64,000 bases of DNA from contig NZ_BOQE01000001.1 in assembly GCF_023705585.1 (NCBI RefSeq), positions 1,315,341 through 1,379,340 on the forward strand, in the 5' to 3' direction. The notes beneath the pieces are model-generated. The model saw only the letters and a list, made by a program, of their open reading frames with translations. It did not search any database and was not told where the DNA came from. Shown here one piece after another: positions 12,485-58,118 of this stretch. The translations under genes and the position numbers were made by a program. Source of the stretch: Collibacillus ludicampi (lineage in GTDB: Bacteria; Bacillota; Bacilli; Tumebacillales; BOQE01). Each line of letters begins with the position of its first letter. Position 1 is the first letter of the stretch.

Positions 12485-12620
12485 AACATGTGTGGTTTGG
12501 TGGGCTCAAGCTTTCGTTCATGCCCTGTGGAGGTCGCCGCTCGCAACACCAACAACTCTCACGTAATCATTCGCTTTTTTGTATGGATTTCCCTCTTTTA
12601 CACGCAAAAAAGGTATCCAT
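12485..12620. repeat. Decayed copy of the nested-palindrome repeat (copy 1)
   Basis: Between spo0F and the M3-like gene the sequence TGTGGTTTGGTGGGC, then CGTTCATG, GTGGAGGTCG and CTCGCA matches in order the left part of the repeat seen at 56385 and 41790. The right arms are barely recognisable (CACGCAAA near 12600). Oldest-looking copy. Confidence 0.5.
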
Positions 12621-14126
12621 TCAAACGGACGGGTGCTCATTCGCAGATCCCCATACATCCTGAATGTCCTTGAGAAAATTGGATGTATCCAATGGGATAT
12701 TCAGTTTCTCGCACCATTCTTCGATCGTATAAGTGGCGCCGAACGACCACATCTGTTTTAGCTCCCTGCCTGCTTGCTGATCCCGAAACCAGCGGTTTCC
12801 ATACTGCGTCTGCAAGCGGGAACACAATTGACTGGCAAACATCCATGAGCGCAAAAGACGCGCAGAAGCAAACGGATGCAGAATATCTTCCAGGTACGTT
12901 TCTTTGGTATACACCGCACCCGTTGCCCGGGACATCATTTGCACGTAACGTTCAGCCATTCCCTCAAGGCTTTGGGCCGCATATAGATCAAGCTCGTACA
13001 AAAACATCCCGGCGTATTTTCGCCAACGATATAACTTGCGAAAGAGAGAATACTCGTAGAACTCTGTGCGTACGGCTTCATCCATATCCAAATGGTGCTC
13101 CGTCCAATCCTTATTGGTTATCAAGTCCTGTAGAACATATCCATACGCATGCGGCAAGGACGGATCTCCGAGAAGCTTGTACATCCAAGGAAGATCTTCT
13201 CGTATATGCGCAAAATATTCGGCTCGTCCCGCCTCATGAAGAATCTCGCAATACTGCGACAATCCGCCTTTCGGGTAGATGACCAAATAAATTTCTTTCG
13301 GTATTAACAAGGGGGAACAACAACAAGACGATTTGTTCACTCGTTTCTCAACATCCATGACGATGCTGGCTTGCTGCAAGATATTAATCCCTAAGCCGTA
13401 TAATGTGTCTTCCAGCGTAGGCAACAGTTCGATTTCACGAAAATACAAATCGTACTTCCGACCGGACAATACAGGATACAGGTGATGCCTCTCTACCCCT
13501 TTCCCATCAGTTCCTTTGGGTATGTAAGTAGCAAACGCTTTCTGATAGAGTGCATCCGTTTTCGCGAGAAAGTCTTTCATCTGTTCCTCTAGAGCGGTCA
13601 GTTGAATACCGGACAATTTCTCGTAAAGTGCCCGGTAATGGGGAAACCCTTGCTGTTTCGCTTGTTCCTGTAAGCGCAAAAAACGCTCTTCACGCAACGG
13701 ATGTAAAACCGTTTCCATCGCATTGACTCGTTGGCAAAGTTCATGCCGTTTCTCATCTTCCGTCTCCGTCCAGATGAGTGACCGTGCCCGCGATAAAGGA
13801 ACCGACCTTCCCTCCCAGGCCACCTCTAGCTTGTTTTCCAATTGCTCAATCGCCTGGGTGCTATCACGCAACATCGATTCGATCGTCTGAAAGAACAGAT
13901 ATCTATAAACATACAAGAGTGGGCGCCTGTCTTCTTCCTTACTCTCCGAAGAAGACAACGCATTGCGCATCGTCTCTACATTCATAAACGTGAATAAATC
14001 TTCAGATTCTTCACGATGATCCTCGTTCGTTTTCTCTTTCTTCCCCGCGCTCGCGTAATAAAACTTCCGGCACATCGACCGAATGGAGTGTTCCAAGCGG
14101 CTGAATATGTGTTGCAGATCCCCCAT
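12621..14126 (-). CDS. M3-peptidase-like protein with degenerate zinc motif
   Basis: A 501-residue, largely helical protein. Its C-terminal half resembles M3/oligoendopeptidase-F proteins around ILHEAGRAEYF (about 295-305), followed by SLPHAYGYVLQDLI. In active M3 enzymes the motif is HExGH; here the second histidine is arginine, so zinc binding is probably lost. An unusual Cys triplet (SSCCCSP, about 267-273) precedes it. The start is uncertain: the ATG at 14126 is 13 bases from GGAGGAG, and an ATG at 14156 lies upstream of it. Possibly a regulator or scaffold derived from a peptidase; function unknown. Confidence 0.7.
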   Translation of the reverse strand: MGDLQHIFSRLEHSIRSMCRKFYYASAGKKEKTNEDHREESEDLFTFMNVETMRNALSSSESKEEDRRPLLYVYRYLFFQTIESMLRDSTQAIEQLENKLEVAWEGRSVPLSRARSLIWTETEDEKRHELCQRVNAMETVLHPLREERFLRLQEQAKQQGFPHYRALYEKLSGIQLTALEEQMKDFLAKTDALYQKAFATYIPKGTDGKGVERHHLYPVLSGRKYDLYFREIELLPTLEDTLYGLGINILQQASIVMDVEKRVNKSSCCCSPLLIPKEIYLVIYPKGGLSQYCEILHEAGRAEYFAHIREDLPWMYKLLGDPSLPHAYGYVLQDLITNKDWTEHHLDMDEAVRTEFYEYSLFRKLYRWRKYAGMFLYELDLYAAQSLEGMAERYVQMMSRATGAVYTKETYLEDILHPFASARLLRSWMFASQLCSRLQTQYGNRWFRDQQAGRELKQMWSFGATYTIEEWCEKLNIPLDTSNFLKDIQDVWGSANEHPSV

Positions 14127-14412
14127 ACTCTCTATTACACTCCTCCCAACGAGCAAAACAAAAAGACCCGAGCTCGACGCTTACGATTCGATGTCATGGT
14201 GCGGGAAACCACCTCCAACAGTTTTCGATTTGTGTATTCACTGATACATGGAGGGATTTTCACGGGCGATTATGTTAAAGATATTCGGGCTTCTGCGTAT
14301 TATTCCTGCCTGACTGCGTCGAGAAATACCGATTTTCCATATATTTTATCGCAAATGATTTCGTTTATTTTAAATAAAATGAATTTTCTTATAAAACAAA
14401 ACAGGCTGAGAA
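14127..14412. other. Intergenic leader region between tpx and the M3-like gene
   Basis: AT-rich in its tpx-proximal half. On the minus strand GGAGGTGG precedes an ATG at about 14197 that opens a 20-codon basic ORF (MTSNRKRRARVFLF...). Its TAA lies nine bases before the ATG of the M3-like gene, so it could be a translationally coupled leader peptide. I see no other gene. Confidence 0.3.
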
Positions 14413-14416
14413 AGAA

Positions 14417-14455
14417 AAAAGAGCCTCACCCTCGCGAGAGGAGAAAGACTCACTG
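14417..14455 (-). terminator. Probable terminator of tpx
   Basis: On the minus strand a GC-rich imperfect hairpin with a TCGC loop is followed by a run of six T near 14418. It lies about 25 bases past the tpx stop. Confidence 0.6.
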
Positions 14456-14478
14456 TAGGAATCAGCCTCTTATATGCT

Positions 14479-15000
14479 TTACAAGACAGATTTTGCAGCC
14501 TCTATCGCCGCTTCGTAGTTCGGATGGTTGGTCACTTCAGGCACGTATTCGACATAAACCACTTTGTCGTTTTTATCGATGACGAACACCGCGCGAGCCA
14601 GAAGACGCAATTCCTTAATCGCAACCCCGTAGTTGATGCCGAATGATAGGTCGCGATGGTCAGACAATGTTTGTACGTTCTCGATGCCCGCTGCACCGCA
14701 CCAACGCTTTTGCGCGAAAGGCAGATCCACGGAAATCGTCAAGACTTTGACCCCCGGCAGACTTGCCGCCTCTTCGTTGAAACGACGGGTTTGCGCATCG
14801 CATACGCCGGTATCGAGGGACGGTACAACGGAGATCAGTCGAACGGATCCTTTAGAACTGTCCAATGTCACTTGGGAGAGGTCGTTTGCCAGAACAGTAA
14901 AGTCTGGAGCTTGATCGCCCACTTTCACTTCATTGCCGAGCAGTGTGACCGGATTCCCTTTAAAAGTAACCGTGTTTTTACGTTCCGCAATTGCAGTCAT
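14479..15000 (-). CDS. tpx: Thiol peroxidase Tpx
   Basis: Atypical 2-Cys peroxiredoxin (173 residues) that reduces hydroperoxides with electrons from thioredoxin. The peroxidatic cysteine lies in [17 protein letters not shown] and the resolving cysteine in [14 protein letters not shown], the Tpx pattern. The family opening [24 protein letters not shown] is intact. The ATG at 15000 follows AAGGAGG at a good distance. It is monocistronic, between a terminator and the pyrG terminator. Confidence 0.96.
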
Positions 15001-15111
15001 TGTTTAAGCCTCCTTATATTCAAGCGTGATTGATTATGTACGGGCACAAAATACCCTTACTGATGTAAATTGTACTATGGAATGCAGGTTCTGTCTGTGG
15101 CGATGCTTACG

Positions 15112-15140
15112 AAAAAAGGGCCGGAAATATTCCCGACCCT
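15112..15140 (-). terminator. Terminator of pyrG
   Basis: Minus-strand hairpin AGGGTCGG/CCGGCCCT with an 8-base loop, followed by six T (15117-15112), 25-50 bases past the pyrG stop. Confidence 0.85.
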
Positions 15141-15164
15141 GGTTTCGAGCGATAGAAGCGAATT

Positions 15165-16802
<1,638 letters not shown>

Positions 16803-16810
16803 CTAAAAAC

Positions 16811-16845
16811 AAAAAAAAACTAAAAGCTGCTTTCTTTTAGTTTTT
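16811..16845 (-). terminator. Leader terminator (attenuator) of pyrG
   Basis: Perfect 12-bp stem AAAAACTAAAAG/CTTTTAGTTTTT (16834-16845, 16815-16826), 7-base loop AAAGCAG, then an extended T-run. It lies about 25 bp downstream of the pyrG -10 and about 30 bp before the ATG, so it is inside the pyrG leader. It could equally terminate read-through from rpoE. Confidence 0.75.
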
Positions 16846-16868
16846 CCAACTCGTGAATATCCTCATGT

Positions 16869-16897
16869 ATGATATCGTTCCGTCCGACTGCTGTCAA
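16869..16897 (-). promoter_or_regulatory. Sigma-A promoter of pyrG
   Basis: -35 TTGACA (16897-16892), 17-bp spacer, -10 TATCAT (16874-16869) on the minus strand, in the rpoE-pyrG gap. Confidence 0.85.
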
Positions 16898-16965
16898 GAG
16901 CAAAGCACGATTAGCCGCTTTCCGATTTCCGGATCGCGGCTGGTAAAACCTGTATGTCATTATGA

Positions 16966-17469
16966 TTAAAAGTCATCGTCTTCATCTTCGAATGCTTCCG
17001 CATCCTCATCATCCAAATCCTCGACCCCAAACGTCTCTTCGAGTTCGTCTTCATTGAAGTCGAGATCTTCTTCTTCCATGTCTCCGAATTCGATATCTTC
17101 TTCCAGTTCCTCATCCGCATACAGATCTGCATCTTCATCGTCATCTTCCCAATCAACATCTTTGCGGATGAACTGCTTGGCGCCCGCTTTATCCATCGTT
17201 TTATCGACGGGATACCAACGTTTTAGCCCCCACACGTTATTTCCGATATTGAGGAACCGGCCGTCTACGTTGATCTCTGTATATAAACGCGCGATGACTT
17301 CATTCACTTCTTCAGGAGTCATGTCGCGCAGACGAGCAACTTCTGCCATCAGATCACGATAATAATAAGGTTTATTCGTTTCTTTCAAAATATCGTACGC
17401 AAGGTCGACAAGCGGCATCTCCCTTGCCGTTTCCTTATCAATCGTCAAAACTCGTGCCTCTTCAGACAT
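16966..17469 (-). CDS. rpoE: RNA polymerase delta subunit
   Basis: Gram-positive RNA polymerase accessory subunit that speeds recycling and sharpens promoter selection. The N-terminal HARE-HTH domain (about 1-90) contains LVDLAYDILKETNKPYYYRDLMAEVA and GRFLNIGNNVWGLKRWYP. The C-terminal 70 residues are almost all Asp and Glu, the disordered acidic tail. With the ATG at 17469 (GGAG eight bases upstream) the length is 167. Gene order rpoE-pyrG is as in Bacillus. Confidence 0.96.
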   Translation of the reverse strand: MSEEARVLTIDKETAREMPLVDLAYDILKETNKPYYYRDLMAEVARLRDMTPEEVNEVIARLYTEINVDGRFLNIGNNVWGLKRWYPVDKTMDKAGAKQFIRKDVDWEDDDEDADLYADEELEEDIEFGDMEEEDLDFNEDELEETFGVEDLDDEDAEAFEDEDDDF

Positions 17470-17587
17470 CGGTTCCACTCCTTCTAAGAGGGGTATCAGG
17501 GATAAAAACCCATGCGCGTCTGATCACATGGGAAGTAGAGGTAGTATACCATACTCTGATGTACGCTGCAATCTCCGGAGAGATCCT

Positions 17588-18532
17588 CTACACTTTCAAT
17601 AAGCGCCGGAGAACGATATCGGCGACTTCGTAAGGATCCGTGCGCCCTTCTTCCACATCCGATAGCGTTGTGGCCCATTTCGGGTCTGCTTGAATCAAAC
17701 TTTTGATTTTCCGACCGATCTCTGCGTCAATAATACTGAGGATTTCATCCTGGCGCTGTTTTTGCCGTTTGTTTGCCAGACGTCCGCTCTCTTTGAGAAA
17801 CGCAAGATGGCGTTCGCACTCGCACCACAATTCTTTGATTCCCATATTATCCCGTGAAGCCACTTTTAAAACCGGCGGACGAAATTCGAAGTCATGGACG
17901 AGGTCAAGCATGTGATTGACCGCCTGTACTGTCTTGTCCGCACCGGGCAAGTCCGCCTTATTGACAACAAAGATATCGGCAATTTCCATAATGCCCGCTT
18001 TCATGCTTTGAATATGATCCCCTGCACTCGGATGCAGAACGACGACCGTTGTGTCTGCCACATGCATAATATCAAGTTCCGATTGCCCGACACCGACCGT
18101 CTCAATAAAAATGACGTCGCTGCCGAACGCATCAAGCACGCGTACCGCTTCACGCGTAGCCTTCGCCAAGCCTCCGAGCGATCCGCGTGTCCCCATGGAA
18201 CGGATAAATACACCGGGATCCAATGCGTGCTTTCCCATGCGTACACGATCGCCCAGGATCGCTCCACCCGTAAAGGGGGAAGTCGGATCGACAGCAATGA
18301 TGCCCACTGTTTTTCCCATTTTCCGCAATAATGAAATCAATCGATCGGTCAAGGAGCTTTTGCCCGCCCCCGGCGATCCTGTCAAGCCCACCAGATACGC
18401 GCGTCCTGTATGCGGATGGATATCCTTCAGAATTTCTTTCTTTTCCTGCGTGTCGTTTTCAATATGTGTAATGGCTCTGGCAGCCGCACGTTTATCCCCT
18501 TTTAGCAATCGTTCAACCAGTTCATGCACCAT
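17588..18532 (-). CDS. meaB: MeaB/ArgK-type G3E GTPase (mutase chaperone)
   Basis: P-loop GTPase of about 314 residues that protects or reloads adenosylcobalamin-dependent acyl-CoA mutases. It shows Walker A GLTGSPGAGKSS, the DPTSPFTGGAILGDRVRM switch, ETVGVGQSE and the NKAD base-specificity motif. The ATG at 18532 has AGGTGAT upstream; a longer start at 18580 is not supported. No acyl-CoA mutase is in the window; the only B12 enzyme here is KamDE. It follows the acd operon on the same strand, so a link to acyl-CoA metabolism is likely. Confidence 0.92.
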   Translation of the reverse strand: MVHELVERLLKGDKRAAARAITHIENDTQEKKEILKDIHPHTGRAYLVGLTGSPGAGKSSLTDRLISLLRKMGKTVGIIAVDPTSPFTGGAILGDRVRMGKHALDPGVFIRSMGTRGSLGGLAKATREAVRVLDAFGSDVIFIETVGVGQSELDIMHVADTTVVVLHPSAGDHIQSMKAGIMEIADIFVVNKADLPGADKTVQAVNHMLDLVHDFEFRPPVLKVASRDNMGIKELWCECERHLAFLKESGRLANKRQKQRQDEILSIIDAEIGRKIKSLIQADPKWATTLSDVEEGRTDPYEVADIVLRRLLKV

Positions 18533-18657
18533 GATCACCTGTATCGAAAAGTAAGGCCTGTCGCCAAAGCGTACAGGCACTTTCTACTATTATATACTTT
18601 TTTAACGCTGTTTTCTCATCTTATTTCCTTTGGAATACCTCGAATCTTTCCTTTTGT

Positions 18658-19803: not shown

Positions 19804-19821
19804 GGTGATTCCTCCCGGATG

Positions 19822-20604: not shown

Positions 20605-20615
20605 GATCGTTCCCC

Positions 20616-30602: not shown

Positions 30603-30685
30603 GATGATCTCCTCCCTTCACTCGTTTTAAGATTTCATATTCGACGGATTTTTATTTGCCTGACCAAATCCAAAAATCCACCTTG

Positions 30686-31015
30686 AAGATTAGTGCTTGG
30701 GTGGATGTATCGCTTTGCGCTTGGGTTCTTTAAGGCATATTCTTTGCGCTCATGCTCCGTGAAGGCCGTCTCGCATAGAACAAAAAATCAAATGTAGCGA
30801 GACGACCTTCAAGGTCGCTATTACGCGCAAAGAATATGCCCTCTGAAACGGTTTAAAAGAAGCGGAACGACCTTCAACTCACCTCTGCGCTGCAAAGCGA
30901 TACATCCACCCAAAAGCCACTCGGTTTCTTGTAGAAGTCTCAAACTTCTCTTCCCACACGAGACCCTTTTCATCCTCTGATGGCGTCGCTTGCAGAATGA
31001 GTGGCTATGAAAAGA
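30686..31015 (+). repeat. Nested-palindrome repeat, copy 2
   Basis: Near-complete copy. Outer arms pair over 19 bp without mismatch (30699-30717 with 30893-30911). Inner arms pair over 16 bp (30734-30749 with 30825-30840) and over 14 bp with one mismatch (30761-30774 with 30797-30810). A non-palindromic tail follows (TTTTCATCCTCTGATGGCG, ending GAGTGGCTAT near 31008). It lies downstream of kamE. Confidence 0.85.
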
Positions 31016-33396: not shown

Positions 33397-33421
33397 CGTG
33401 CTGCTTTCCCCTTTCATCTAT

Positions 33422-33803
33422 CCTGATAACTAGTGCTTGGGTGGATGTATCGCTTTGCGCTTGGGTTCGATGAAGGTCGTCTTTGGGGCATATGCTTTGC
33501 GCTCATGCTTCGTGAAGGTCGTCATTGCGGGCATATGCTTGGCGTTCATGCTCCGTGGAGGTCTTCTCGCTCGGAATATCTTTAGTTGTTGCGAGACGAC
33601 CTTCAAAGTCGCTATTACGCGCAAAGCATATACCCCATAACGTCCAAAAGGAAGCGGAACGACCTTCAACTCACCTCTGCGCTGCAAAGCGATACTATCC
33701 ACCCAAAAGCCACTCCGTTTCTTCTGGTAGCTTTAAACTTCCAAACACAAGAAACTTTACATCCTCTCATGGCGCCGTTTGCTACATCAGTGACTAACTT
33801 GAC
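33422..33803 (+). repeat. Nested-palindrome repeat, copy 3 (inside the kam operon)
   Basis: Full copy with an extra left unit: head AACTAGTGCTTGGGTGG at 33428, then two left units (33486 on, 33529 on), one right unit (33590-33634), outer right arm (33680-33702), and tail to about 33803. It fills the kamC-kamD gap and the kamC stop codon lies in its tail. Confidence 0.85.
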
Positions 33804-35463
33804 GATCCTTCGGTGTCGAATTAGCGGCGTGAAGATCTAACTGTTCTCCCAGATGTGTACGTCCATAGCGAATGATAGCCTTGGGGAGTCCCAGATGTTC
33901 AGCTATCCAGAGCGCATCCTGCGGTACTTGTTCTCGCTCCGTTCGCAACGGTACGATGCGATAATCCATCGCTTGCTGCAGTTGCACAAGCATATCACCT
34001 GCCTGATGCAGGCGGATCTCCTCTTTCTTTTCATGAGCGAGACCGATCACCCGATATGCTTGAATTCCTGGCACTTTCGCGACTGCTGCAAAGTGGGTGG
34101 CCACAAATGCGGAATGTTCCGTCGTCAGCAGATGGCGGACAAGTCCTACGGCAATCGCCTCCCCTTCCTGCGGATTGGTCGTACGCGCGACTTCATCCAT
34201 GAGGAATAGCCCTTCTCCCGTTTCGCCCAAAATGTCAACCAAGCGTTTCACTTCACCGCCAAACGATGAAAGGCCGTGTTCACTCGTTTGCTCATCACCG
34301 CCGAGAAAACGGATGCGCTCGACAGGGCGAAAGGTATATGCGCGTACAGGGACGTGAAAACCATATTGAGCCAATCCCTGCAGAAGTGCCATCGTTTTGA
34401 GCGCGACGGATTTCCCCCCCATATTTGGTCCCGTCACTACGCCAACACCGCGCTGGAACGTGAGAGAAAGCGGTGTGTAGCGACCGCCTTTTTCACATAC
34501 CTGCTTTTCGATCCAAGGATGCACCGCATCTTCGATCAGCCAACCCCATTCATTCCATTTCGGCTCAACAGCTTTCCATCGATTGGCCCATTCACTTTTG
34601 GCAACAAGCCAATCCAAACGGCCAAACGCCTGATGCACCTGTCGCAAACGATCAACCTCAGGAAGAAAGTGACGGCTGATCTCTTGCAAAACTTCCTTTT
34701 CAACCGCTTCCAACTGCTCCATCAAAACTTGTTCTTTCTCTTTCAATTTCTCGATGTCAGTGCTGTCGACAATACGGAAGATCACTTCCCACGCATTTTC
34801 CGCCTGCCTGATCAAGGATCGGTCTTCATTTGCGAGTGCCAACATGTCGCGGTCATTTTTATCCCAAATATATTCACCTTCGCGATTGGGCAAGCGGCCG
34901 TAGCGCGCATGAAGAACGTCATACAGTTCTTTGCGCATTTTGCGGATCTCCGCGCGAACCTCATCACACGCGTTGCGCAGTTGTGCCAAACGCGGATCAT
35001 ATCCGTCATCAATGGAAAAATCGGGCTTCAACTCTGCGGATGGGTTCAGCAAGCGAAGCAGTCGCTCCCAATCGACGTCGGTCATCCATGAAAACAAGAT
35101 TTGTTTTTCCCGCAGTGACTCTTGAAGTCCCCGTCCTGTCCAAAGGAACTGTTTGATTTCAAAGAAATCAACCACTCTGAGCGGCATGCCCTTGACGAGG
35201 AGTGCGAGTTGTTGTTCGACTGGCCGCAAGCTTTGCAACCGATTGCGCAGGGTCTCAGCGAAGTCTCTGTCCTCAAGCGCTATGCGCATCTGTTTAACGG
35301 CGTTCATTTCCTCTTGCCAAGCGATCCGATCATTCGGGCCAAACGGAAGCAATCGATTTTTATAATGTTTCCCCAGCGATGAATAAGGGCACGCTTGTGC
35401 CCATACCTGTTCCCAATGCACCTGTATCTTTGTTTTTTCATCCAGAAGATGGTAGGCGGGCAC
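33787..35463 (-). CDS. kamC: MutS-like ATPase of the lysine aminomutase cluster (KamC)
   Basis: About 558 residues with MutS-type helical lever regions and a C-terminal MutS domain V ATPase: Walker A GPNMGGKS (about 344-351), DEQTSEHGLSSFGGE signature, Walker B LFLMDEVARTTNPQEG. No mismatch-recognition domain is visible. Such proteins sit in lysine-fermentation clusters beside KamB; a role in reactivating or assembling the B12 mutase is plausible but inferred. The GTG at 35463 has GGAGG eight bases upstream and overlaps kamB by 26 bases. The last seven codons and stop are in the repeat tail. Confidence 0.85.
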   Translation of the reverse strand: MPAYHLLDEKTKIQVHWEQVWAQACPYSSLGKHYKNRLLPFGPNDRIAWQEEMNAVKQMRIALEDRDFAETLRNRLQSLRPVEQQLALLVKGMPLRVVDFFEIKQFLWTGRGLQESLREKQILFSWMTDVDWERLLRLLNPSAELKPDFSIDDGYDPRLAQLRNACDEVRAEIRKMRKELYDVLHARYGRLPNREGEYIWDKNDRDMLALANEDRSLIRQAENAWEVIFRIVDSTDIEKLKEKEQVLMEQLEAVEKEVLQEISRHFLPEVDRLRQVHQAFGRLDWLVAKSEWANRWKAVEPKWNEWGWLIEDAVHPWIEKQVCEKGGRYTPLSLTFQRGVGVVTGPNMGGKSVALKTMALLQGLAQYGFHVPVRAYTFRPVERIRFLGGDEQTSEHGLSSFGGEVKRLVDILGETGEGLFLMDEVARTTNPQEGEAIAVGLVRHLLTTEHSAFVATHFAAVAKVPGIQAYRVIGLAHEKKEEIRLHQAGDMLVQLQQAMDYRIVPLRTEREQVPQDALWIAEHLGLPKAIIRYGRTHLGEQLDLHAANSTPKDRQVSH

Positions 35464-41759: not shown

Positions 41760-41779
41760 GGGTATGACTGTCCTTTCTA

Positions 41780-42180
41780 TTTTGAAAGCTTGTGGTTTGG
41801 TGGGGATGCCTCTTTGCGCTTGGGTTCGGTGAAGGTCGTCTCAGCGGGCATATGATTGGCGTTCATGCTCCGTGAAGGTCGTCTCGCATGGAATCATAAT
41901 CATATGTTGCGAGACGACCTTCAAAGTCGCTATTACGCGCAATGCATATACCCTTTTACGTCCGAAAGGAAGCGAGACGACCTCCAAAGTCGCTGTTTCA
42001 CGCCAAGCACATGCCCTCTTACCTGTTTAAAGGAAGCGGAACGACCTTCAACTCACTTCTACGCTGCAAAGCGATACGATCCACCCAAAAGCCACTTTGT
42101 GTCTGGTGGTAGCCTCAAAATACTCTTTCCGCATAAGAAACTTTTCATCCTCTGATGGTGCCGCTTGCTGCAAGGTTGTG
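41780..42180 (+). repeat. Nested-palindrome repeat, copy 4
   Basis: Long copy: head TTGTGGTTTGGTGG (41790 on), a left outer unit and one more left unit, perfect 15-bp hairpin (41874-41888 with 41908-41922), then two right units (41905-41950, 41970-42014), the outer right arm (42063-42085) and the tail (TTTTCATCCTCTGATGG at 42142). It has replaced the 5' part of the ATPase gene to its right. Confidence 0.85.
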
Positions 42181-46921: not shown

Positions 46922-46964
46922 CGCGTCTCCATTCTTGACGCATCATTATACGAAGAAAAGGTTG

Positions 46965-47051
46965 TACCCCTGGCCGCATTCAGTGTCAGCTGAGGATGAA
47001 AATTTTCTCATGCGCAATGTGATAAACCTACCCAAGCACTCAATTTCAAAG
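46965..47051 (-). repeat. Remnant of the nested-palindrome repeat, copy 5
   Basis: Read on the minus strand it begins TTGAAATTGAGTGCTTGGGTAGG (head), then a short centre with TTGCGC, and ends TTTTCATCCTC...GCGGCCA (tail). The palindromic arms are missing, as if deleted internally. Confidence 0.6.
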
Positions 47052-47106
47052 TTGATTTAGTATTCATCACTGTAGAAAGATACAGTCTACGCGTTCACAC
47101 ATAGGA

Positions 47107-49954: not shown

Positions 49955-49983
49955 GGATGTTTACGAACTATATGTCCATGACG

Positions 49984-50012: not shown

Positions 50013-50019
50013 CTGTGTT

Positions 50020-50270
50020 TTCATGATAGCCACCCCTGCCGCAAGCAGCGCCATTAGAGGATGAAAAGTTTATTGTGCAGGAAGAGAGATTTAAAGCAGC
50101 CATAAGCAACAGAGTGACTTTTGGGTGGGTTGTATCGCTTTGCAGCGCAGAGGTGAGTGGAAGGTCGTTCCGCAACCTCTATTAAGAATCCGGGCGGGAC
50201 GACCTTCATCGAACCCAAGCGCAAAGCGATACATCCACACAAGCACTAGTTTACAAGGTGTACGGCCTTC
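50020..50270 (-). repeat. Nested-palindrome repeat, copy 6 (reverse orientation)
   Basis: Same element in the opposite direction: tail at 50024-50075 (GATAGCCACC...GCGCCATTAGAGGATG), right outer arm GGTTGTATCGCTTTGCAGCGC, a single short unit (AAGGTCGTTCCG), left outer arm and head CAAGCACTAGTTTACAAG at 50241-50258. The inner units are largely missing. Confidence 0.75.
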
Positions 50271-50309
50271 ATCTGACCGTGATTCAAACGGCTGACAACG
50301 GGCGTGATA

Positions 50310-50717: not shown

Positions 50718-50903
50718 AGAACAAACCTCCCATCTCATAATGTGGCGTTACAATTCCTTTATCATCCTATGGCATACACTCGCTCGACGCACCGGATAGA
50801 AGCCCAGGAGCTTCCGATCGATTAATAAGTGATACATACGACTATACAGCTTGCTCACCTTCTGCATAGAATATTACGTATCAACTGGAGAGGCGGAAGT
50901 CAC

Positions 50904-51554
50904 ATGGCTTTTTTCGTCACGTACGGTGATTCTGTACCTGCAGGATATGGCGTCCCTATTGCATGTAACTTCATCTCGGTCATACAAAAAAGGTTATCAT
51001 CATCTCGCAACCATCCCGTACAAGCTATCAATCTGAGCATACCGGGATTGAACACCTTCGGCCTTCTGGAGATGCTTGCAAGCGGTGATGGGATGGCGCT
51101 TCTCCCTTCCTCTTCCTTCATTATCGTTTATATTGGAGGCAATGATTTGATTGATTCCCTGCCCCTTTTGCTCTCAAAGGGAAAGCGCGTTCTTCCTAAA
51201 GTCATTCAAATGTCGCAACAGATATTCACTCGTACACTGCAAGTCATTCATCGACATACAAGATCCCCTATCTTAGTCGGCACGTTATACAATCCTTTCC
51301 CGAATTCCCCAATCGCAGTGGAAGCTGTTTCCCTTTATAATCAGCAAGTCATCATTCCGGCCGCTCAAGCCGCTTACACTCGAATCGTACCTGTAAATGA
51401 AGCCTTTCTCGGGCGCGAATCCGTTTTGATTCAAGGATACTCTTCCGGGATCGCAGGGCAACATGGAACTCACGGAATTGAATATCCCATCCATCCCAAC
51501 CTTGCCGGCCACCGCGTGATCGCAGAACAATTTTTAAACTGTCTAGGAAACTAG
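50904..51554 (+). CDS. SGNH/GDSL-type hydrolase
   Basis: 216 residues of the lipase/esterase SGNH fold: block I FVTYGDSVPAGYG with the nucleophilic Ser, block II glycine in INLSIPGLNTFG, block III IVYIGGNDLID, and block V EYPIHPNLAGHRVIAEQF with the catalytic Asp-less IHPN His. No signal peptide. The substrate is unknown. The ATG at 50904 has GGAGAGGCGG upstream. Its TAG stop (51552-51554) lies within the head of a repeat copy. Confidence 0.88.
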   Translation: MAFFVTYGDSVPAGYGVPIACNFISVIQKRLSSSRNHPVQAINLSIPGLNTFGLLEMLASGDGMALLPSSSFIIVYIGGNDLIDSLPLLLSKGKRVLPKVIQMSQQIFTRTLQVIHRHTRSPILVGTLYNPFPNSPIAVEAVSLYNQQVIIPAAQAAYTRIVPVNEAFLGRESVLIQGYSSGIAGQHGTHGIEYPIHPNLAGHRVIAEQFLNCLGN

Positions 51555-51872
51555 CGCTTGAGTGGATATATCGTTTTGCGCTTGGGTTCAATGAAGGTCG
51601 TCTTTGAGACATATGCTTGGCATTCACGCTCCTTGAAGGTGTCTCAGCGGGTATATGTATCGCGCTCATGTTCCCTAAAGGTCGACTCAGCGGGCATATG
51701 ATTGGCGTTCATGCTCCGTGGAGGTCGCTTTTTCACGCCAATCAAATGCCCTTTATCTATTTAAAAGGAACGAGACGACCTTCAAAGTCGCTATGACGCG
51801 CAAAGCAGTACGCCTACCCAAAGACACCTTTCAACTTGATGGCGCCGCTCGTAACATGAGTGGCTATCTTTG
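51546..51872 (+). repeat. Nested-palindrome repeat, copy 7
   Basis: Copy with three tandem left units (51609, 51652 and 51692 onwards) and two right units. Inner arms GGGCATATGATTGGCGT (51692-51708) and ACGCCAATCAAATGCCC (51735-51751) pair with one mismatch. The tail is shortened (TTGATGGCGCCGCTCG, then GAGTGGCTATCTTTGAAAG). Confidence 0.85.
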
Positions 51873-51922
51873 AAAGTTTACCTCCCATATGAACCCACGA
51901 ATGAATCAGAAAGCCAGATATT

Positions 51923-51962
51923 AAAAAAGCAAGAGGTTACGTCTCGCAACCTCTTGCTTTTT
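51923..51962. terminator. Bidirectional terminator of the parM-parR operon
   Basis: GCAAGAGGTT/AACCTCTTGC with A- and T-runs on both sides (51929-51957). It lies 115 bp past the parR-like stop on the minus strand. Confidence 0.85.
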
Positions 51963-52077
51963 CTTTCTGTGAAGACAGTTTCCGTTTGCAGTTCATTGTA
52001 CATCCTTCCGGCGGATCACGGAAGTCAGGATATTCCCCAGGGAATAACTATGAGTATTCCCTTTCCGTCAAAATTCG

Positions 52078-52431
52078 TCACTTCCGGCCAAAATTCCGAA
52101 TCTGTTCGAGCAAACTTTCACGGCTGGGAAGCACGGGTTCTTTGCTGCGTACTTGAGTCCGTTTTTGTGTTGTTGTGGATGGTGTCGTTTTTGCGGTGGT
52201 TTTCGGTAATAGAACAGGATCTTGACTTTTCCAGCGATCCATCCATTCCTGCGGTATAAAACGAAGTAAATCCTGCATTTGGATCATCATTTGTTCCGCT
52301 TCCATGCCCCGTTTCAGCAGTTCGCGGATGACGTGAGATCGGTTGCGCGCATTGCCGATTCTCTCAAGAATATCAGCATCTTCCACTTCATCCAGGCTGA
52401 AAGTGATCCGGCGCAATCCAGATTCAGACAT
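52078..52431 (-). CDS. ParR-like ribbon-helix-helix protein
   Basis: 117 residues. The N-terminus RRITFSLDEVEDADILERIGNARNRSHVIRELLKRGM (about 7-43) is a strand-helix-helix RHH domain like those of StbB/ParR partition adaptors. The C-terminal half is Thr/Lys/Pro-rich and probably disordered, ending SRESLLEQIRNFGRK, a short helix that could contact the filament as in ParR. It starts two bases after the actin-like gene, so the two are translationally linked. Adaptor role is inferred from context. Confidence 0.78.
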   Translation of the reverse strand: MSESGLRRITFSLDEVEDADILERIGNARNRSHVIRELLKRGMEAEQMMIQMQDLLRFIPQEWMDRWKSQDPVLLPKTTAKTTPSTTTQKRTQVRSKEPVLPSRESLLEQIRNFGRK

Positions 52432-52433
52432 AC

Positions 52434-53534
52434 TTATGCCTCCGTTTTACCTGCTGCCGCTTCGTCTGCTTCTTCCCCGAAAATATATCGTGCAATATTC
52501 AAGAATCCTTGTGAATTGCCGAAACGTGCATGCACCTTTTTGTTGGTTAATTCAATATTTGGACCATACGCTTTCAGATATGGGAATAATACTTCACCGC
52601 CTCCACCGGTAATATATACCTTATCGAATTGACTCAGGTTTTCATTCCATGCCTGTACAAACACTTCATTAGCAATGGCAGTTGCCAAATCTTGTTTGAG
52701 AGATTCCAGTTCTGACATCAACTCTTCATCCGCACGCATCCCTGTCGTCTTGCCCGTCCAAGCCAATTCATCTGCCTGCGCGTTCGTTAATTTGCGGTTT
52801 GTATTACGGATCGCTTGCGTGATCCGGTTCATTCCAAGATCAGTGATGCCGTCACTCATCGCCGGTACTGGCTCATAACCTTCGAACACCGCATAGTCGG
52901 TGGTCTTCATACCGATGTCGAGGATGGCTACCAGCCCGTTTTCCACATCATCCATGCTCTTTCCTTGTTCCAGGAGCATGCCCAGAACCACGCCGAGTCC
53001 CTGAGGAGCAACGAGCACGTTTTTGATGCGAATTCTTTTCTCTACACCTTTATACGGCCCTTCGTGATAAGCGACCTCGAAGACGCGGTTCTGCAAGCTT
53101 TCCGTCAGAGGTCCTTGTTGTTCGGCAAAATAAGAAACGGCCAATCCTGTGCACAGGTTGACTTCATACTCGCCGCTCACATCCGGTGTAGCGATCGCAA
53201 GGGCTGTCGCTAACAAAGCGCGGAACTTGGGATCATCAACCTTATTCTCCGTTAAAACATAGTCAACCCGACTTAAACCGGAGCGTAAAGCTTTGGATCC
53301 AACCACCCATTCAACGGAAGGCAACGCGTTTTCAGATATTGATACATGCAAGCTGTCAAGAACATCCACATTTGCCGTTTTGATCTTTGAGAAAAGTGAT
53401 TGCATTCCTTTTAATGTATCTTTCGGCGCTTTCTCCGCAACAGAAGGAAACGCCTGCGGTTTTTTCACGCTTGAACTCACCTTTGTATAACCATATCCGG
53501 CATCGAGTCCAACATAAATCGGTCGTTTCGCCAT
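52434..53534 (-). CDS. Actin-like ATPase of the ParM/StbA/Alp7A type
   Basis: 366 residues of the ASKHA actin fold: phosphate-1 GLDAGYGYTKV (9-19), phosphate-2 ILDIGMKTTDYAVF (204-217), and the adenosine motif VYITGGGGEVLFP (306-318). Such proteins form filaments that push or align DNA in type II partition systems. It is followed at once by an RHH adaptor and preceded by a repeat-rich AT region. The ATG at 53534 follows GGAGTTGAG; the longer start at 53555 lies over that site. A Glu/Ala-rich tail ends the protein. Confidence 0.88.
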   Translation of the reverse strand: MAKRPIYVGLDAGYGYTKVSSSVKKPQAFPSVAEKAPKDTLKGMQSLFSKIKTANVDVLDSLHVSISENALPSVEWVVGSKALRSGLSRVDYVLTENKVDDPKFRALLATALAIATPDVSGEYEVNLCTGLAVSYFAEQQGPLTESLQNRVFEVAYHEGPYKGVEKRIRIKNVLVAPQGLGVVLGMLLEQGKSMDDVENGLVAILDIGMKTTDYAVFEGYEPVPAMSDGITDLGMNRITQAIRNTNRKLTNAQADELAWTGKTTGMRADEELMSELESLKQDLATAIANEVFVQAWNENLSQFDKVYITGGGGEVLFPYLKAYGPNIELTNKKVHARFGNSQGFLNIARYIFGEEADEAAAGKTEA

Positions 53535-53639
53535 ATTCTCAACTCCTATGTACAAGTTTGTATACCTATTCTACCTAAATTTTTCGTTTTAAGGGAGAGT
53601 TTTATAATGACTGCATCCTATTTCTTCGTATCTTTTCTC

Positions 53640-54075
53640 AAAAAGAATGATGAAATAAGAAAAAGTATGACCTTGTACGAAAATCTGAGTTCCTTCTTTT
53701 TGTTCGACATAAGCAGACCAAAAATATAAGAATACATAAGAAGTTATATGAAAATATATGATCCAGTTTTAATTGATCATATAAAATATGAATTGATAAG
53801 AAATAGTATGATTAAGTAAGAATCCCACCTCACCTAGACCCTCTCCTTCATTATAATCTATGAATATTTACGAAAATGTAAGCTAAGATAAGACTTTAAC
53901 TCACATTATAATAATTTATCATATTTTTTATGAATAAATAAGAGATCATATGAATTTGCGGCTAGTAAACCTTCTCTCGTTCGCTTATTTATGACTATTT
54001 AAGACTAATTAAGAAATTATAAGAATAAATCTCAATAGTGATGATTATATAAGATAAATTCATATGAAGTGATAT
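53640..54075. repeat. AT-rich direct-repeat array upstream of parM (candidate parC centromere)
   Basis: The hexamer ATAAGA occurs on the plus strand at 53655, 53726, 53736, 53796, 53888, 53938, 54019 and 54049, with near matches (ATAAGC 53709, GTAAGA 53816, TTAAGA about 54009). I found no copy in the opposite orientation. Many are preceded by TATGAAT. The stretch is the most AT-rich in the window and holds no ORF. Position directly upstream of an actin/RHH operon is where type II par systems have parC. Confidence 0.6.
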
Positions 54076-54340
54076 TTTTTCATCTCTCGTTAGAACAAAA
54101 CAGACTTGCTATGACTGATACAAAGGAAAAGCTGTAATTTGGCTTATAACGGCCGATTTTAGTGTAAGGAAGCATTTTTGATGGGGGGAACATCGAATAT
54201 ACAAAAAGATCGGGGGTCAAAAGAGGGACAAAATTCGATAGTATTCATCAAATGATTCGACGATTCGATGAAAAACGACTGCATTTGCTATTGTCATTAC
54301 TCAGCGCGAAGGCGAAATCAACAAGTACAAAAACAAGATC
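54076..54340. other. Region between the repeat array and a decayed palindrome repeat
   Basis: No clear gene. On the plus strand a frame from about 54166 reads DGGNIEYTKRSGVKRGT then a helical stretch (FDSIHQMIRRFDEKRLHLLL) and runs on into the repeat. It lacks a convincing start and is probably a remnant. Confidence 0.3.
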
Positions 54341-54600
54341 TGCATCACGCTCGTGTTTCGTGAAGACCGTCTTACTGGGCGTATGCTTTGCGTTCATGTT
54401 CCGTGGAGGTCATCGTCTCGCATGAAATACGATCCAATATTGCGAGATTACCTGCAAAACCGCTATTTCACGCAAAACAAATACACCTTTAGCGTTCCAA
54501 AGATGCGAAATGACAATCAAAGTCACTATTACGAGCCGAGTAGATGTTACTTTACTTTCAGAAATCAACAAGACAACCGCTCGTCGAAAAAAACTGCCCG
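54341..54600 (+). repeat. Decayed nested-palindrome repeat, copy 8
   Basis: GGGCGTATGCTTTGCGTTCATGTTCCGTGGAGGTC (left unit), then CGTCTCGCA, TGCGAGATTACC, CGCTATTTCACGCAAAAC (right unit) and a second, more decayed right unit. Head and tail not recognisable. Confidence 0.65.
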
Positions 54601-54679
54601 ATGATACCCGATCACCAGGCAGCCAAATATTCATCCGATCGTCATGACTATTTGGGAGGAAAACTTCCGATCTGGCAAA

Positions 54680-55201
54680 TTATTCCCCCCTATATTCTAC
54701 AAGCGTAAAACCTTCCTTCTGCAATGCTTTCTTGGCATCCGCAATATTTTCCGGATCCTCAGAGCTCACCGTATGATAATGCAGGCCACCCGAGACTTCC
54801 GAGAATAACGGGATCGATGCCCTGTCCCATTTTTCGACAAAATTCTTCACGTCTTTAGGTGTGGAGATCCCAAGAAACCCTCTTATTCTTCCATAAATGG
54901 GGTGATCGATAAAAACATCCTCAACACGAACATGATGGGCCACAAGAATTTCCAGCTCCCGTCTCAACTGTTCGGGAGTATGAATGATTCCCAGTACTTC
55001 TCGCCATTCTTGCGGGCTCTCGGTACATACATAACCGTGCGTCGTACTGACAATCTCATGTCCGTCCTTGCGCAGGAACGCAATATCTTGTACGATGGTC
55101 TGACGGCTGACACCTACACGCTCTGCAAGCTGGGAGCCAGACAATGGTTCGTCTATAGACCTTAAAAGTTCGAGCAACTTTTTCCTGCGTTCCGAAGACA
55201 C
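54680..55201 (-). CDS. niaR: NAD biosynthesis repressor NiaR
   Basis: 173 residues with an N-terminal HTH_11 domain (LLELLRSIDEPLSGSQLAERVGVSRQTIVQDIAFLR, about 8-45) and a C-terminal 3H domain with its three conserved histidines (AHHVRVEDVFIDHPIYGRI, GGLHYHTVSS). It binds nicotinic acid and represses NAD genes. The GTG at 55201 follows GAGGAGGG. It is 29 bases downstream of nadA, in the same operon, with a NiaR-like site ahead of nadB. Confidence 0.95.
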   Translation of the reverse strand: MSSERRKKLLELLRSIDEPLSGSQLAERVGVSRQTIVQDIAFLRKDGHEIVSTTHGYVCTESPQEWREVLGIIHTPEQLRRELEILVAHHVRVEDVFIDHPIYGRIRGFLGISTPKDVKNFVEKWDRASIPLFSEVSGGLHYHTVSSEDPENIADAKKALQKEGFTLVEYRGE

Positions 55202-55230
55202 CAAACTCCCTCCTCGTAGAAAAATCACGT

Positions 55231-56334
55231 TTACGATAGGGAAAGCATACGATCAATGGCGACCTTCGCCCACTGTGCCGTTTCACGGTCTACGCGAATG
55301 ACATTTTCCTCTTTCCCATTCACCAAATTTTCAAGAGAACGCAACAAATGAGGCCGGTCAATCCGATTCATCGTCAAACAAGGGCATATCATCGAATTCA
55401 GTGAGATAATAAATTGCTCCGGATGTTCCTGCGCCAATCGATTCACAAGATTGTGTTCCGTTCCAATCGCCCATTTCGTCCCTGCGGGCGCCTTACGGAT
55501 CGCTTTAATGATATAATCAGTGGAACCCGCTTCGTCCGCGAGTTGAACGGTTTCGTACATACATTCCGGATGTACGATCACACGAATATCTGGATACTGT
55601 TCCCGTACCTGATGGACATGCTTCGGTTCAAATTTTTGATGAACGGAACAATGACCTTTCCATAAGATCATACGAGGCTCTTCTTGCCCATGAGGAAATT
55701 CAAGTTCCATTCGCTTTGGATCATATACGCACATCTGGCTTAAAGGAATTCCCAATTTCACTCCTGTATTGCGTCCCAAATGTTGATCCGGCAAAAAGAG
55801 AACTTTCGCTTTCTGGTTGAAAGCATAAGTGAGAATCCGTTCCGCATTCGAAGATGTAACGGTCAGCCCGCCATGTTGACCCACAAACGCTTTGATTGCT
55901 GCCGTCGAATTCACATACGTGACCGGGATGATCGTATCTCCATAGAGGGAAGTCAGCACATCCCAGCATTCCTCAACTTCTTCGAGGTCGGCCATATCCG
56001 CCATGGAACAACCCGCGTTCATATCAGGCAGGATGACGATTTGATCATCCCCCGTGAGAATATCCGTCGTTTCCGCCATGAAATGAACACCGCAGAAAAC
56101 GACATACTCACTTTCCTTCAAATCGGCCGCAATGCGCGCCAATTGAAGAGAATCTCCACGATAGTCTGCGAAACGAATCACATCGTCTCTTTGATAGTGA
56201 TGACCGAGAATGGTCAATCGATGGCCCAATTCTTTCTTGGCGTCGGCAATTCGCTGATCGAGTTCTTCCGATGAAATCGCAAGATCATCCGCTGTTACAA
56301 TTCCGTCAAGCGCGCATTGAGATTCAAGATTCAT
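55231..56334 (-). CDS. nadA: Quinolinate synthase A
   Basis: [4Fe-4S] enzyme (367 residues) that condenses iminoaspartate with dihydroxyacetone phosphate. Bacillus-type NadA signatures include LTILGHHYQRDDVI, VVFCGVHFMAETTDIL, PDMNAGCSMADM, VIVHPECMYETV and ISLNSMICPCLTMNRID; the cysteines in the CGV, ECM and CPC motifs are the cluster ligands. The ATG at 56334 has GGGGGAA upstream. The upstream extension of the frame enters a repeat copy and is not coding. Confidence 0.96.
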   Translation of the reverse strand: MNLESQCALDGIVTADDLAISSEELDQRIADAKKELGHRLTILGHHYQRDDVIRFADYRGDSLQLARIAADLKESEYVVFCGVHFMAETTDILTGDDQIVILPDMNAGCSMADMADLEEVEECWDVLTSLYGDTIIPVTYVNSTAAIKAFVGQHGGLTVTSSNAERILTYAFNQKAKVLFLPDQHLGRNTGVKLGIPLSQMCVYDPKRMELEFPHGQEEPRMILWKGHCSVHQKFEPKHVHQVREQYPDIRVIVHPECMYETVQLADEAGSTDYIIKAIRKAPAGTKWAIGTEHNLVNRLAQEHPEQFIISLNSMICPCLTMNRIDRPHLLRSLENLVNGKEENVIRVDRETAQWAKVAIDRMLSLS

Positions 56335-56374
56335 TGTTTTTATTCCCCCTATCATAGAGCAGTGGTCATAGCTA

Positions 56375-56582
56375 TCTTGACAATGTGTAGTTTGGCGGGC
56401 GTATGCTTTGCGTTCGCGCTCCGTGGAGGTCGTCTCGCACGGAACAATGTTCAGATGTCGCGAGACGACCTCCAAAGTCGCTGTCTCACCCAAAGCATTA
56501 CGCCCACCCAATGTCACTTTTCATCCTCTGATGGCGCCGCTTGCGGCATGGAGGGCTATCTTGAAAACCAGTGCTTAGGTGA
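56375..56582 (+). repeat. Nested-palindrome repeat, copy 9 (between nadB and nadA)
   Basis: Compact copy with a single unit: GGGCGTATGCTTTG (56397-56410) pairs with CAAAGCATTACGCCC (56491-56505, one extra base), and GGAGGTCGTCTCGC (56425-56438) pairs perfectly with 56460-56473. Tail 56519-56560, then a second head-like CAGTGCTTAGGTG. CTATCTTGAMAA occurs on both flanks (56372 and 56557). The nadB stop is at its right edge. Confidence 0.85.
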
Positions 56583-58118
56583 CTATGCAGAAAAAACAAA
56601 TTGGTCACTTTTTACTTGCAGCGAATGGCGTTGCTGCTCATTATTCTCTTCAGGATAGTCGCTGCGAAAATGCGAGCCTCGACTTTCACGACGCCACAAA
56701 GCTGCTCTCGCCACCAACAAAGCCGATACGAGAAGATTGCGGTCTGCAAGCGTTTTCGCCTCTTCCAGCCACTCTTCAATTTTGCCGCATGCTTCCTGTA
56801 AACGTCTGCCCTCACGAATCAGTCCAACCTCTTCCCACATCAAGCTTTGAACGCGAGCAAGCAGGGATGCAGTCGGCTGCACGGACAGATTCGCTATATA
56901 TTCGCTTGAGAAGGAAGGTTCATGCGCTTTCTCAAGCGATCGTACCTCTGCCAACGCCTCAGCCGTACGTCTGGCAAAAGCGGCCCCTTCAAGCAACGAA
57001 TTGCTCGCCAAGCGATTCGCACCGTGAACGCCCGAGGACGCGACTTCTCCAACGGCAAACAATCGCGGCAGAGTCGTACGCCCGTTCGTATCGGTTTTGA
57101 TTCCCCCCATCGTATAGTGGGCCGCCGGCACAACCGGTATCAAATCGCGCGCGGGATCGATTCCGTGTTTTTTGCAAAGTTGCGTAATAGTCGGAAAGCG
57201 TTTCGCAAAATGAGAGATCGAGCGAGCATCGAGATAAACGTTTTTCCCGGCATTGTATTCCGTAAAAATCGCTCTGGCAACGATATCACGGGAAGCTAAA
57301 TCCTTCCATGGATGATAGCGTCCCATGAAGGCTTCGCCCGCGCTGTTAACAAGTACAGCACCTTCACCGCGAACCGCTTCCGAGATCAATGGCATAGGAT
57401 TCGTATCTACTTTCAAAGCAGTGGGATGAAATTGCACAAACTCCATATCCTGAAGTTCCGCTCCCGCCTGGTAAGCCATCGCATATCCGCTGCCATAGAT
57501 CCCTGGATCGTTCGTCGTGTAACGGTATAATTGTCCGAGACCGCCATTCGCCAAAACGACAGTCTTCCCTTGAAAATAAAGAGGGCCTAATTCATGGTCA
57601 ACCGCAACGAGTCCTTGACATTCCCCGTCAACCACGATCAATTCCGCTGCATAACAATGCTCGAAAATGTCGATCCGTGGCGATGTGAGCACATGTTTAG
57701 CGAGTACATCGACAATCGCCTTTCCCGTAGCATCGCCGCCGGCATGGACGATTCTGTTTTTCCCATGCGCTCCTTCTCTACCTAAAACAAGTTCCCCCGT
57801 TTTGTCCCGATCGAAAGGAACTCCCAAATCCACAAGAAGCCGGATCATGTCCGGCGCGGCATGTACAAGCGTGTCCACTGCCGAGTAGTCAGAGAGTCCG
57901 GAACCGGTACGAAGTGTATCGTCTCTATGCAAGTCCGGGCTATCATCGTTACCGATTGCGGCCGCGATTCCTCCCTGTGCAAACCGGCTGTTACCGTCGC
58001 CGATTCGATCTTTAGTAACGAGAGAAACCCTTCCATAGCGGGAGGCAAACAAACTTACCGTCAAACCGGCAATCCCCGAACCGACAACCACGTAATCGGT
58101 TTGGATCAATCTCGACAT
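56583..58118 (-). CDS. nadB: L-aspartate oxidase
   Basis: FAD enzyme (511 residues) oxidising aspartate to iminoaspartate for quinolinate synthesis. Motifs: VVVGSGIAGLTVSLFA, SRFAQGGIAAA, QFHPTAL, ISEAVRGEGAVLVN, GEVASSGVHGANRLASNSLLEG. The ATG at 58118 gives the expected N-terminus. The last codons (SDQFVFSA, TAG) lie at the edge of a repeat copy, so the native C-terminus may have been altered. Usual partner nadC is absent from this position. Confidence 0.95.
   Translation of the reverse strand: MSRLIQTDYVVVGSGIAGLTVSLFASRYGRVSLVTKDRIGDGNSRFAQGGIAAAIGNDDSPDLHRDDTLRTGSGLSDYSAVDTLVHAAPDMIRLLVDLGVPFDRDKTGELVLGREGAHGKNRIVHAGGDATGKAIVDVLAKHVLTSPRIDIFEHCYAAELIVVDGECQGLVAVDHELGPLYFQGKTVVLANGGLGQLYRYTTNDPGIYGSGYAMAYQAGAELQDMEFVQFHPTALKVDTNPMPLISEAVRGEGAVLVNSAGEAFMGRYHPWKDLASRDIVARAIFTEYNAGKNVYLDARSISHFAKRFPTITQLCKKHGIDPARDLIPVVPAAHYTMGGIKTDTNGRTTLPRLFAVGEVASSGVHGANRLASNSLLEGAAFARRTAEALAEVRSLEKAHEPSFSSEYIANLSVQPTASLLARVQSLMWEEVGLIREGRRLQEACGKIEEWLEEAKTLADRNLLVSALLVARAALWRRESRGSHFRSDYPEENNEQQRHSLQVKSDQFVFSA

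Follow-up and report, generated by a model that had tools for sequence, protein, structure and literature searches.

The window considered here (the whole stretch of Collibacillus ludicampi DNA that was analysed, 64 kb in length) carries non-coding repeats of nested-palindrome layout, which raises the question of what kind of element they are. A preliminary description listed nine places and left three options open, namely a non-autonomous mobile element, a REP/BIME-like array, or a structured RNA. Further searches confirmed that the observation is real and that the copies in the window are part of a genome-wide family. The genome holds at least 138 clusters of the element, and the covariance-model search that had been proposed, run on the whole genome and on genomes of the order, recovered at least 150 hairpin matches genome-wide (at least two places being counted on both strands) together with a relative in one further genome. 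BLAST returned at least 71 pieces of the element, with 40 of 204 candidate places scored. Patterns for the tail and the right unit matched the genome 103 and 205 times, respectively, with up to three mismatches allowed; the same patterns written backwards as controls had no genome matches.

With profiles derived from copies elsewhere in the genome, eight of the nine listed places were clearly matched, the ninth (12485–12620) giving only a weak match. Four extra weak matches in the window (5.9–8.8 bits at E < 0.5) were not counted as copies, and the window read backwards, as a control, gave one profile match of 6.2 bits. The weakly matched place, 12486–12545 on the + strand, is what remains of the left half of a type-2 element (GTGTGGTTTGGTGGGC... 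left unit); 12510–12538 was matched by profile (12.9 bits, E 0.0036) and the rest was recognised by eye. Module matches delimit three type-1 elements on the + strand, with the strings H-L-R-O-T at 30678–31013, H-L-L-R-O-T at 33418–33806 (final 3 bases by eye), and H-L-R-R-O-T with a decayed right end at 41777–42180. The − strand carries a remnant at 46958–47053 that retains head and tail and has lost its interior (profile T 26.1 bits, H 24.3 bits), as well as a short type-1 element, H-O-T, at 50017–50260 (module matches). The profile matches themselves spanned 41777–42178 for the third type-1 element and 50018–50260 for the short one. A type-1 head, several left units, a right unit and a tail follow at 51540–51874 (+, module matches), and a decayed copy with recognisable left and right units (L 40.8 bits, R 23.3 bits) lies at 54338–54546 (+). 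The last place, 56375–56582, had been taken for a single copy; it is instead a type-2 element, h2-L-R-T, at 56372–56567 (+, module matches), and then a type-1 head remnant at 56556–56581 (+, H match 13.9 bits) that adjoins the type-2 tail via one CTATCTTGAAAAC motif.

Copies throughout the genome are built from a head, 0–4 inverted 43-bp units per arm (one to three had been proposed), an outer arm, and a tail of ~55 nt. The modular build of the preliminary description was upheld, and its single type of outer arm was not: there are two element types, which have the units and the tail in common and differ in their outer arms. Type-1 copies measure 183–543 bp (median 335, n = 79), and many module strings are partial copies. 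The suggestion that units expand and contract fits these data, with the addition that the unit numbers of the two arms are mostly matched; left and right numbers are equal in 85 of 122 copies (46 in shuffles, with a maximum of 64 in 5000) and unequal in the other 37. Two conversions to a perfect palindrome were also found, with arms of 43 and 47 bp.

The head starts and the tail ends with direct copies of one motif, CTAYYTTGAAAAY, which was seen in strict, non-composite sets of ends; on the left, where type 1 alone was used, these sets retained 78 of 103, and on the right 75 of 101. By eye, the same motif is present at type-2 left ends in many of the rows listed. The information per base is 0.94–1.14 bits on the left and 0.25–0.54 bits on the right for TTGAAAA, and 0.42–0.69 and 0.49–0.85 bits, respectively, for CTA. 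The outermost 13 bp are direct repeats, inverted arms beginning only further inward, and element end and target have a 12-bp motif in common, the target motif being CTAYYTTGAAAA. Copies are also stacked, in that for 30 of 126 tails a head, or the remnant of one, follows through a single shared motif.

Nested insertions offer a view of the target before insertion. Where a copy sits inside an inverted unit of locus L116, the joined flanks have the intact target length of 76 of 105 comparable copies. At a second nested insertion, L089, the joined flanks are 6–8 nt shorter than in 86 of 95 comparable copies and show a 2-nt gap against one relative, which a small loss of target sequence or a subsequent deletion may explain; L089 failed a recount, which reduced an initial two clean empty sites to one (L116). 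Both nested insertions have 8 bp common to their two junctions and are readable as 8-bp duplications, a reading opposed solely by the population test. There, the smallest p over 15 positions was 0.064 for 48 strict left–right pairs, and for 62 looser pairs, in which some composites were still included, the smallest p was 0.032; these tests, which are blind to 2–3 bp inside the invariant TTG, rule out a target duplication at the population level. At position −14, left–right agreement was rarer than in shuffles (p 0.9985). Taken with a probability of roughly 0.68, the family consists of apparently non-autonomous mobile DNA elements, which is the best supported of the three original options given its ends, nested insertion and stacking. 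Copy number, covarying fold, matched unit numbers, intergenic placement, biased orientation and the relative in a second genome count in its favour as well.

The elements are supported by covariation as forming a long, ladder-like hairpin of stacked 43-bp rungs, folded from a single strand. In the hairpin alignment, in which 93.4% of cells are paired, 14 of 34 pairs have changed on both sides (7.4 in shuffles, none of 500 being as high; 6–7 in slid controls), and complementarity of the inner arms is 0.788 within a copy vs 0.740 between copies (z 16.3). Among IS200/IS605-type features, the main hairpin is supported and the tail hairpin is without support in the consensus fold, RNAalifold giving no consensus pair for it.

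Of 14 genomes of the order, two contained the family, that of C. ludicampi being one of them, with up to 150 candidates scored per genome and the nearest comparison genomes being at the level of the same order. The second genome, from another family, carries a relative that has diverged but folds similarly: among six sequences, 13 of 36 pairs have changed on both sides, and all 11 of 11 BLAST copies lie outside ORFs. The RNAalifold covariation term for the relative is slightly unfavourable (+0.79). The default structure of model R2 includes one doubtful small hairpin. A search of the class, which scored nine candidates per genome under strict filters, yielded weak negatives. Rfam gave no match in the window above the gathering threshold and, at five copy-bearing loci, nothing besides a SAM riboswitch separate from the element (E up to 0.1). 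Plasmid and phage sequences held no match to the element. Neither did IMG/VR, searched with two exact patterns, nor GTDB r220, also searched with exact patterns; with ~20–25 specified bases, such patterns miss diverged relatives. The second GTDB pattern is present in loci of genome G004, which is thus not in, or was left out of, the GTDB r220 collection. The preliminary description, which knew of no described family with this layout, named a match to a known IS, MITE or Rfam family as its refutation; no such match came from Rfam, plasmids, phages or the two IMG/VR patterns.

Could the copies instead be structured RNAs or mRNA 3′-end elements, such as bidirectional terminators or stability hairpins, that selection keeps in place, their spread being ancient and secondary? 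The covarying fold would fit, as would the position of the copies: none of 136 element blocks lies inside a predicted ORF, elements are enriched in convergent gaps (22 of 110 gaps with an element vs 24 of 189 without), and elements in tandem-gene contexts are antisense more often than sense (72:22, p 2e-7). By eye, TTTTC follows the hairpin on both strands. The element strand is also biased to lagging over leading (94:39, p 2e-6); genes on the lagging strand have 11 antisense vs 6 sense elements (p 0.33), gene-neutral contexts have 27 lagging vs 12 leading (p 0.024), and the effects of genes and of replication on orientation are confounded. Against an RNA stand the presence of the family in just two genomes of the order, the stacking and nesting of copies in one another, and the many partial strings. 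Terminator-like hairpins (−8 kcal/mol or better) occur at 16 of 100 tail sides vs 12 of 100 head sides, which rules out that tails lie at intrinsic terminators. The original structured-RNA option is half right: covariation supports the fold, but the conversion of two copies to perfect palindromes, like the way the elements are inserted, favours DNA over RNA, and there is no Rfam match. We regard this alternative as unlikely.

If the elements are mobile DNA, an enzyme would be needed to move them. Y1_Tnp (PF01797; TnpA/RAYT) had no match in the genome, while the control was positive in 5 of 14 known genomes. Recombinase-type matches comprise 18 tyrosine recombinases, 5 serine recombinases, 4 IS110 and 2 reverse transcriptases, and within ~1.5 kb of them the only element module is one marginal tail-like match of 9.9 bits. 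Lone heads and tails in the stretches read included no recognisable autonomous copy, and the 23 single-module strings appear on inspection to be remnants, stacked heads or mirror matches. The mobilising enzyme is absent from the genome, belongs to a family other than those tested, or is a tested one without linked ends. A MITE moved by a DDE transposase, with terminal inverted repeats and target duplications, would likewise be small, palindromic and high in copy number; we consider it very unlikely here, as the outermost sequences are direct rather than inverted copies of one motif and no duplication was detected. Least probable of all is an element of the IS110 kind, in which a bridge RNA guides target and donor matching and the fold would be that guide RNA: target and end do have a 12-bp motif in common and the genome does contain IS110 transposase matches, but there are only four, one with an internal stop and others short, and no element module lies near any of them.

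For the preferred reading, non-autonomous mobile DNA, we propose that an enzyme acting in trans would recognise the folded strand via its conserved asymmetric internal loops (GCTC..G opposite CAAAgTCGC), and that donor and target would be joined between CTAYY and TTGAAAA. Insertion would take place at a short motif, with one orientation preferred relative to the replication fork, in a process akin to IS200/IS605-type HUH transposition or to another folded-substrate recombination. Rungs may come and go as paired shells, and an imperfect palindrome may at times be made perfect by template switching during replication. More speculatively, and with rather more doubt than belief on our part, this could be a new folded-DNA mobile element in which the repeated-loop ladder hairpin is the substrate of a non-Y1 single-strand recombinase; if so, substrates would vary in their number of rungs, and one system would be at work in two families of the order. 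Interspersed palindromic repeats with a missing mobiliser are common in bacteria. This repeat family, with its recognisable ends, one clean empty site, target motif and covarying fold, and with a relative in a second bacterial family of the order, allows a direct search for the mechanism as well as for the mobiliser.

How does the family compare with known repeats? Neither REP/BIME/REPIN sequences nor IS200/IS605 derivatives are known to produce target duplications. The C. ludicampi element resembles them in being palindromic, in its presumed folded-strand substrate and in its replication-strand bias, as these are described in the cited accounts (PMC6006769, PMC8266576, PMC3116915). Of the traits of an IS200/IS605-derived element, a short motif and the absence of a detected duplication were observed, a clean empty site was seen at one of two nested insertions, and the main hairpin was supported but the tail hairpin was not; no TnpA was found in the genome, and no autonomous copy sharing the ends was recognised in the stretches read. 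The REP/BIME-like option accordingly holds as an analogy and fails as membership, because no Y1 (TnpA/RAYT) transposase of the kind that mobilises REPs was found in the genome; type-1 copies also far exceed REPs, given as 20–40 bp (PMC3733652). BOX elements of streptococci are described as modular, with ends that stay fixed while the number of modules between them varies; one genome has 125 copies, another species surrounds the same boxB with other end modules (boxE/boxF), copies are clustered and inserted into one another, and the termini are inverted, with target duplications (PMC3049150). Fixed ends and a variable inner-module number recur in C. ludicampi, whereas its two ends repeat a single motif directly, with no duplication detected, and both arms carry units, those of one arm pairing with those of the other. 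The bcr1–bcr18 repeats of the Bacillus cereus group have the motif TTTAT, as opposed to CTAYYTTGAAAA and a ladder hairpin here. Judged by analogy, and with BOX and bcr compared by description, the family looks like one that works as BOX, bcr and REP-type repeats do but is distinct from them.

The nine places between 12485 and 56590 of the window at which the preliminary description had placed copies or remnants of a nested-palindrome repeat are all genuine, the first of them (12485–12620) being weak at 12.9 bits, and they belong to one family spread genome-wide. BLAST with one copy as query returned 71 pieces from 40 scored places (204 candidates), while patterns for the tail and the right unit, allowing up to three mismatches, matched the genome 103 and 205 times, respectively; the same two patterns written backwards gave no match in the same genome search. 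The places among the BLAST and pattern matches listed form at least 138 clusters. We read the sequence of 100 of the 104 stretches around clusters outside the window, and these together with the window held 181 module strings in 101 regions, 23 of them consisting of a single module. A covariance model gave at least 150 matches genome-wide, a count that includes at least two perfect palindromes counted on both strands, and every scored candidate matched. The window also holds about seven head-to-tail 21-bp units of seven residues each (7899–8045), located in ORFs of both strands (7828–8148, plus; 7800–8144, minus), and, outside the family, an inverted repeat whose 28-nt arms are separated by 98 nt (53930–54083).

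Type-1 elements run from a head (H) through left units (L) and inverted right units (R) to an outer right arm (O) and a tail (T). Their commonest strings are HOT (33), HLROT (18) and HLLRROT (10), and the 79 copies with both ends measure 183–543 bp (median 335). Type-2 elements place a different head (TGTGTAGTTTGG) and a different outer arm around the same units, with the same tail (LRT 22, LLRRT 7); among the copies listed, those of the LRT form are mostly 184–187 bp from join to join. Of 122 copies, 85 have as many left as right units (shuffling would give 46), and 37 do not. Arms within one copy also match each other better than arms between copies, with z = 16.3 for inner units (117 copies), z = 5.6 for outer units (33 copies) and z = 8.5 for H with O (87 copies). 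Given these matched numbers and this within-copy fit, units have been gained, lost or altered mostly as paired shells of one hairpin.

We evaluated this fold on 60 of 113 inner hairpins of suitable length, in which 93.4% of cells were paired and 14 of 34 pairs carried double-sided changes; shuffles gave 7.4 (none of 500 reached 14), and the pairing when slid gave 6–7. Unaided, RNAalifold recovered 24 pairs, 9 with double changes, and a covariation term of −1. The unit consensus conserves two asymmetric internal loops (GCTC.CG opposite CAAAgTCGC). A tail hairpin is present in folds of consensus sequences and absent from the consensus fold of 60 of the 126 tails. Two copies (at L088 and L148) contain perfect palindromes with arms of 47 and 43 bp, in which one arm has been swapped for the mirror of the other; this would be the expected product of replication template switching, and points to hairpin formation in DNA.

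The motif CTAYYTTGAAAAY stands at both element ends in direct orientation. In the strict end sets (78 of 103 type-1 left ends, 75 of 101 right ends), left ends carry a strong TTGAAAA and right ends a strong CTA, the other half of the motif being weaker in each case, which is the pattern expected if donor and target were joined between CTAYY and TTGAAAA. Left and right ends showed no positive correlation across 48 strict pairs (the smallest p was 0.064, and at one position they agreed less than in the shuffles, p = 0.9985), nor did they in 62 looser pairs beyond one of 15 positions (p = 0.032). A target duplication is thus not detectable, although one of 2 or 3 bases within TTG is still possible. 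Two copies lie inside other copies, and in each of these insertions 8 bp around the join are common to its two junctions. At the first (L116), the joined flanks align across the junction with uninterrupted relatives, at equal length in 76 of 105 comparable copies. At the second (L089), the joined site is 6–8 nt shorter than in 86 of 95 comparable copies and does not rejoin cleanly, so that the shortfall would reflect a small loss during insertion or else a subsequent deletion within a variable stretch. In 30 of 126 cases the tail passes through one motif straight into a further head, whole or remnant, of the same direction.

No predicted ORF encloses any of the 136 blocks (strings of at least two modules, merged with their neighbours), ORFs being called by length alone (at least 90 aa) and those largely of repeat sequence dropped. 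Several tails finish at, or close to, the adjacent gene's stop codon, and in six cases the tail's CTA provides a TAG stop (distance −12). Copies in tandem gene contexts are antisense rather than sense by 72:22, and in 94 copies the element strand is the lagging one, against 39 in which it is leading, with an origin near 1.495 Mb and a terminus near 3.6 Mb placed from the GC skew of the stretches read, which is noisy near 2.0–2.4 Mb. These gene-orientation and replication-strand effects overlap and are partly confounded: gene-neutral contexts show 27 lagging versus 12 leading copies (p = 0.024), and genes on the lagging strand 11 antisense versus 6 sense (p = 0.33). Convergent gaps account for 22 of 110 with an element versus 24 of 189 without, and terminator-like hairpins occur on 16 of 100 tail sides versus 12 of 100 head sides, with no clear tail enrichment. 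A SAM riboswitch (RF00162, 84.6 bits) lies near repeat copies at L082:2422–2536 (minus).

The family had no match in Rfam, in plasmids or phages (one copy as query), in IMG/VR (exact pattern) or in GTDB r220 (two exact patterns); a DNA search of 40 relatives found no copies, and searches of the openly licensed literature listed no description of it. Under strict filters, the covariance model identified one further genome (G004) among 398 of the class, its own included. This genome, of the same order and a different family, holds about 12 copies (11 places by BLAST, 12 matches with R2, the model used in the order-level search), and none of the 11 BLAST copies lies inside an ORF. Six aligned copies share a fold in which 13 of 36 pairs have double changes, though its covariation term is slightly unfavourable (+0.79). 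By eye, the two best copies (L200 and L202) have the right end CYTTGAAAAT, and the remainder are more diverged or lack it. At another locus there (L211), three related copies lie within 2.5 kb, one beginning 3 nt beyond a neighbouring ORF's stop codon. At E up to 0.05, covariance models found no copies in the order's remaining 12 genomes.

Among candidate mobilising enzymes, Y1_Tnp had no match in the genome, and the other families searched gave 2 reverse-transcriptase, 18 tyrosine-recombinase, 4 IS110 and 5 serine-recombinase matches; apart from a marginal 9.9-bit tail-like match, no element modules lay within about 1.5 kb of these. The stretches read held no recognisable autonomous copy. Three 278-aa tyrosine-recombinase genes on two contigs (L179, L180 and L181), with near-identical scores of 102.4–102.5 bits, are probably a separate mobile element. 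Two adjoining reverse-transcriptase gene pieces (L170 and L171), which we take to resemble group II intron remnants, have no repeat modules nearby.

The best reading of these results is that the family consists of non-autonomous mobile elements with motif-directed insertion, mobilised by an enzyme that these searches did not reveal, and that the inserted substrate is probably a folded single strand. IS200/IS605 elements insert without target duplication, a likeness to the present family. They also resemble it in replication-strand bias and folded substrate (PMC6006769); however, because their defining enzyme is missing from this genome, we do not file the family under IS200/IS605. By analogy with that group, the strand exposed as lagging-strand template would be complementary to the one that reads head to tail. 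The bcr repeats resemble the family in their size and copy number and in having a recombination-like motif (PMC6542083). In modular design the closest match is BOX, which in another species combines a single inner module with alternative end modules (PMC3049150).
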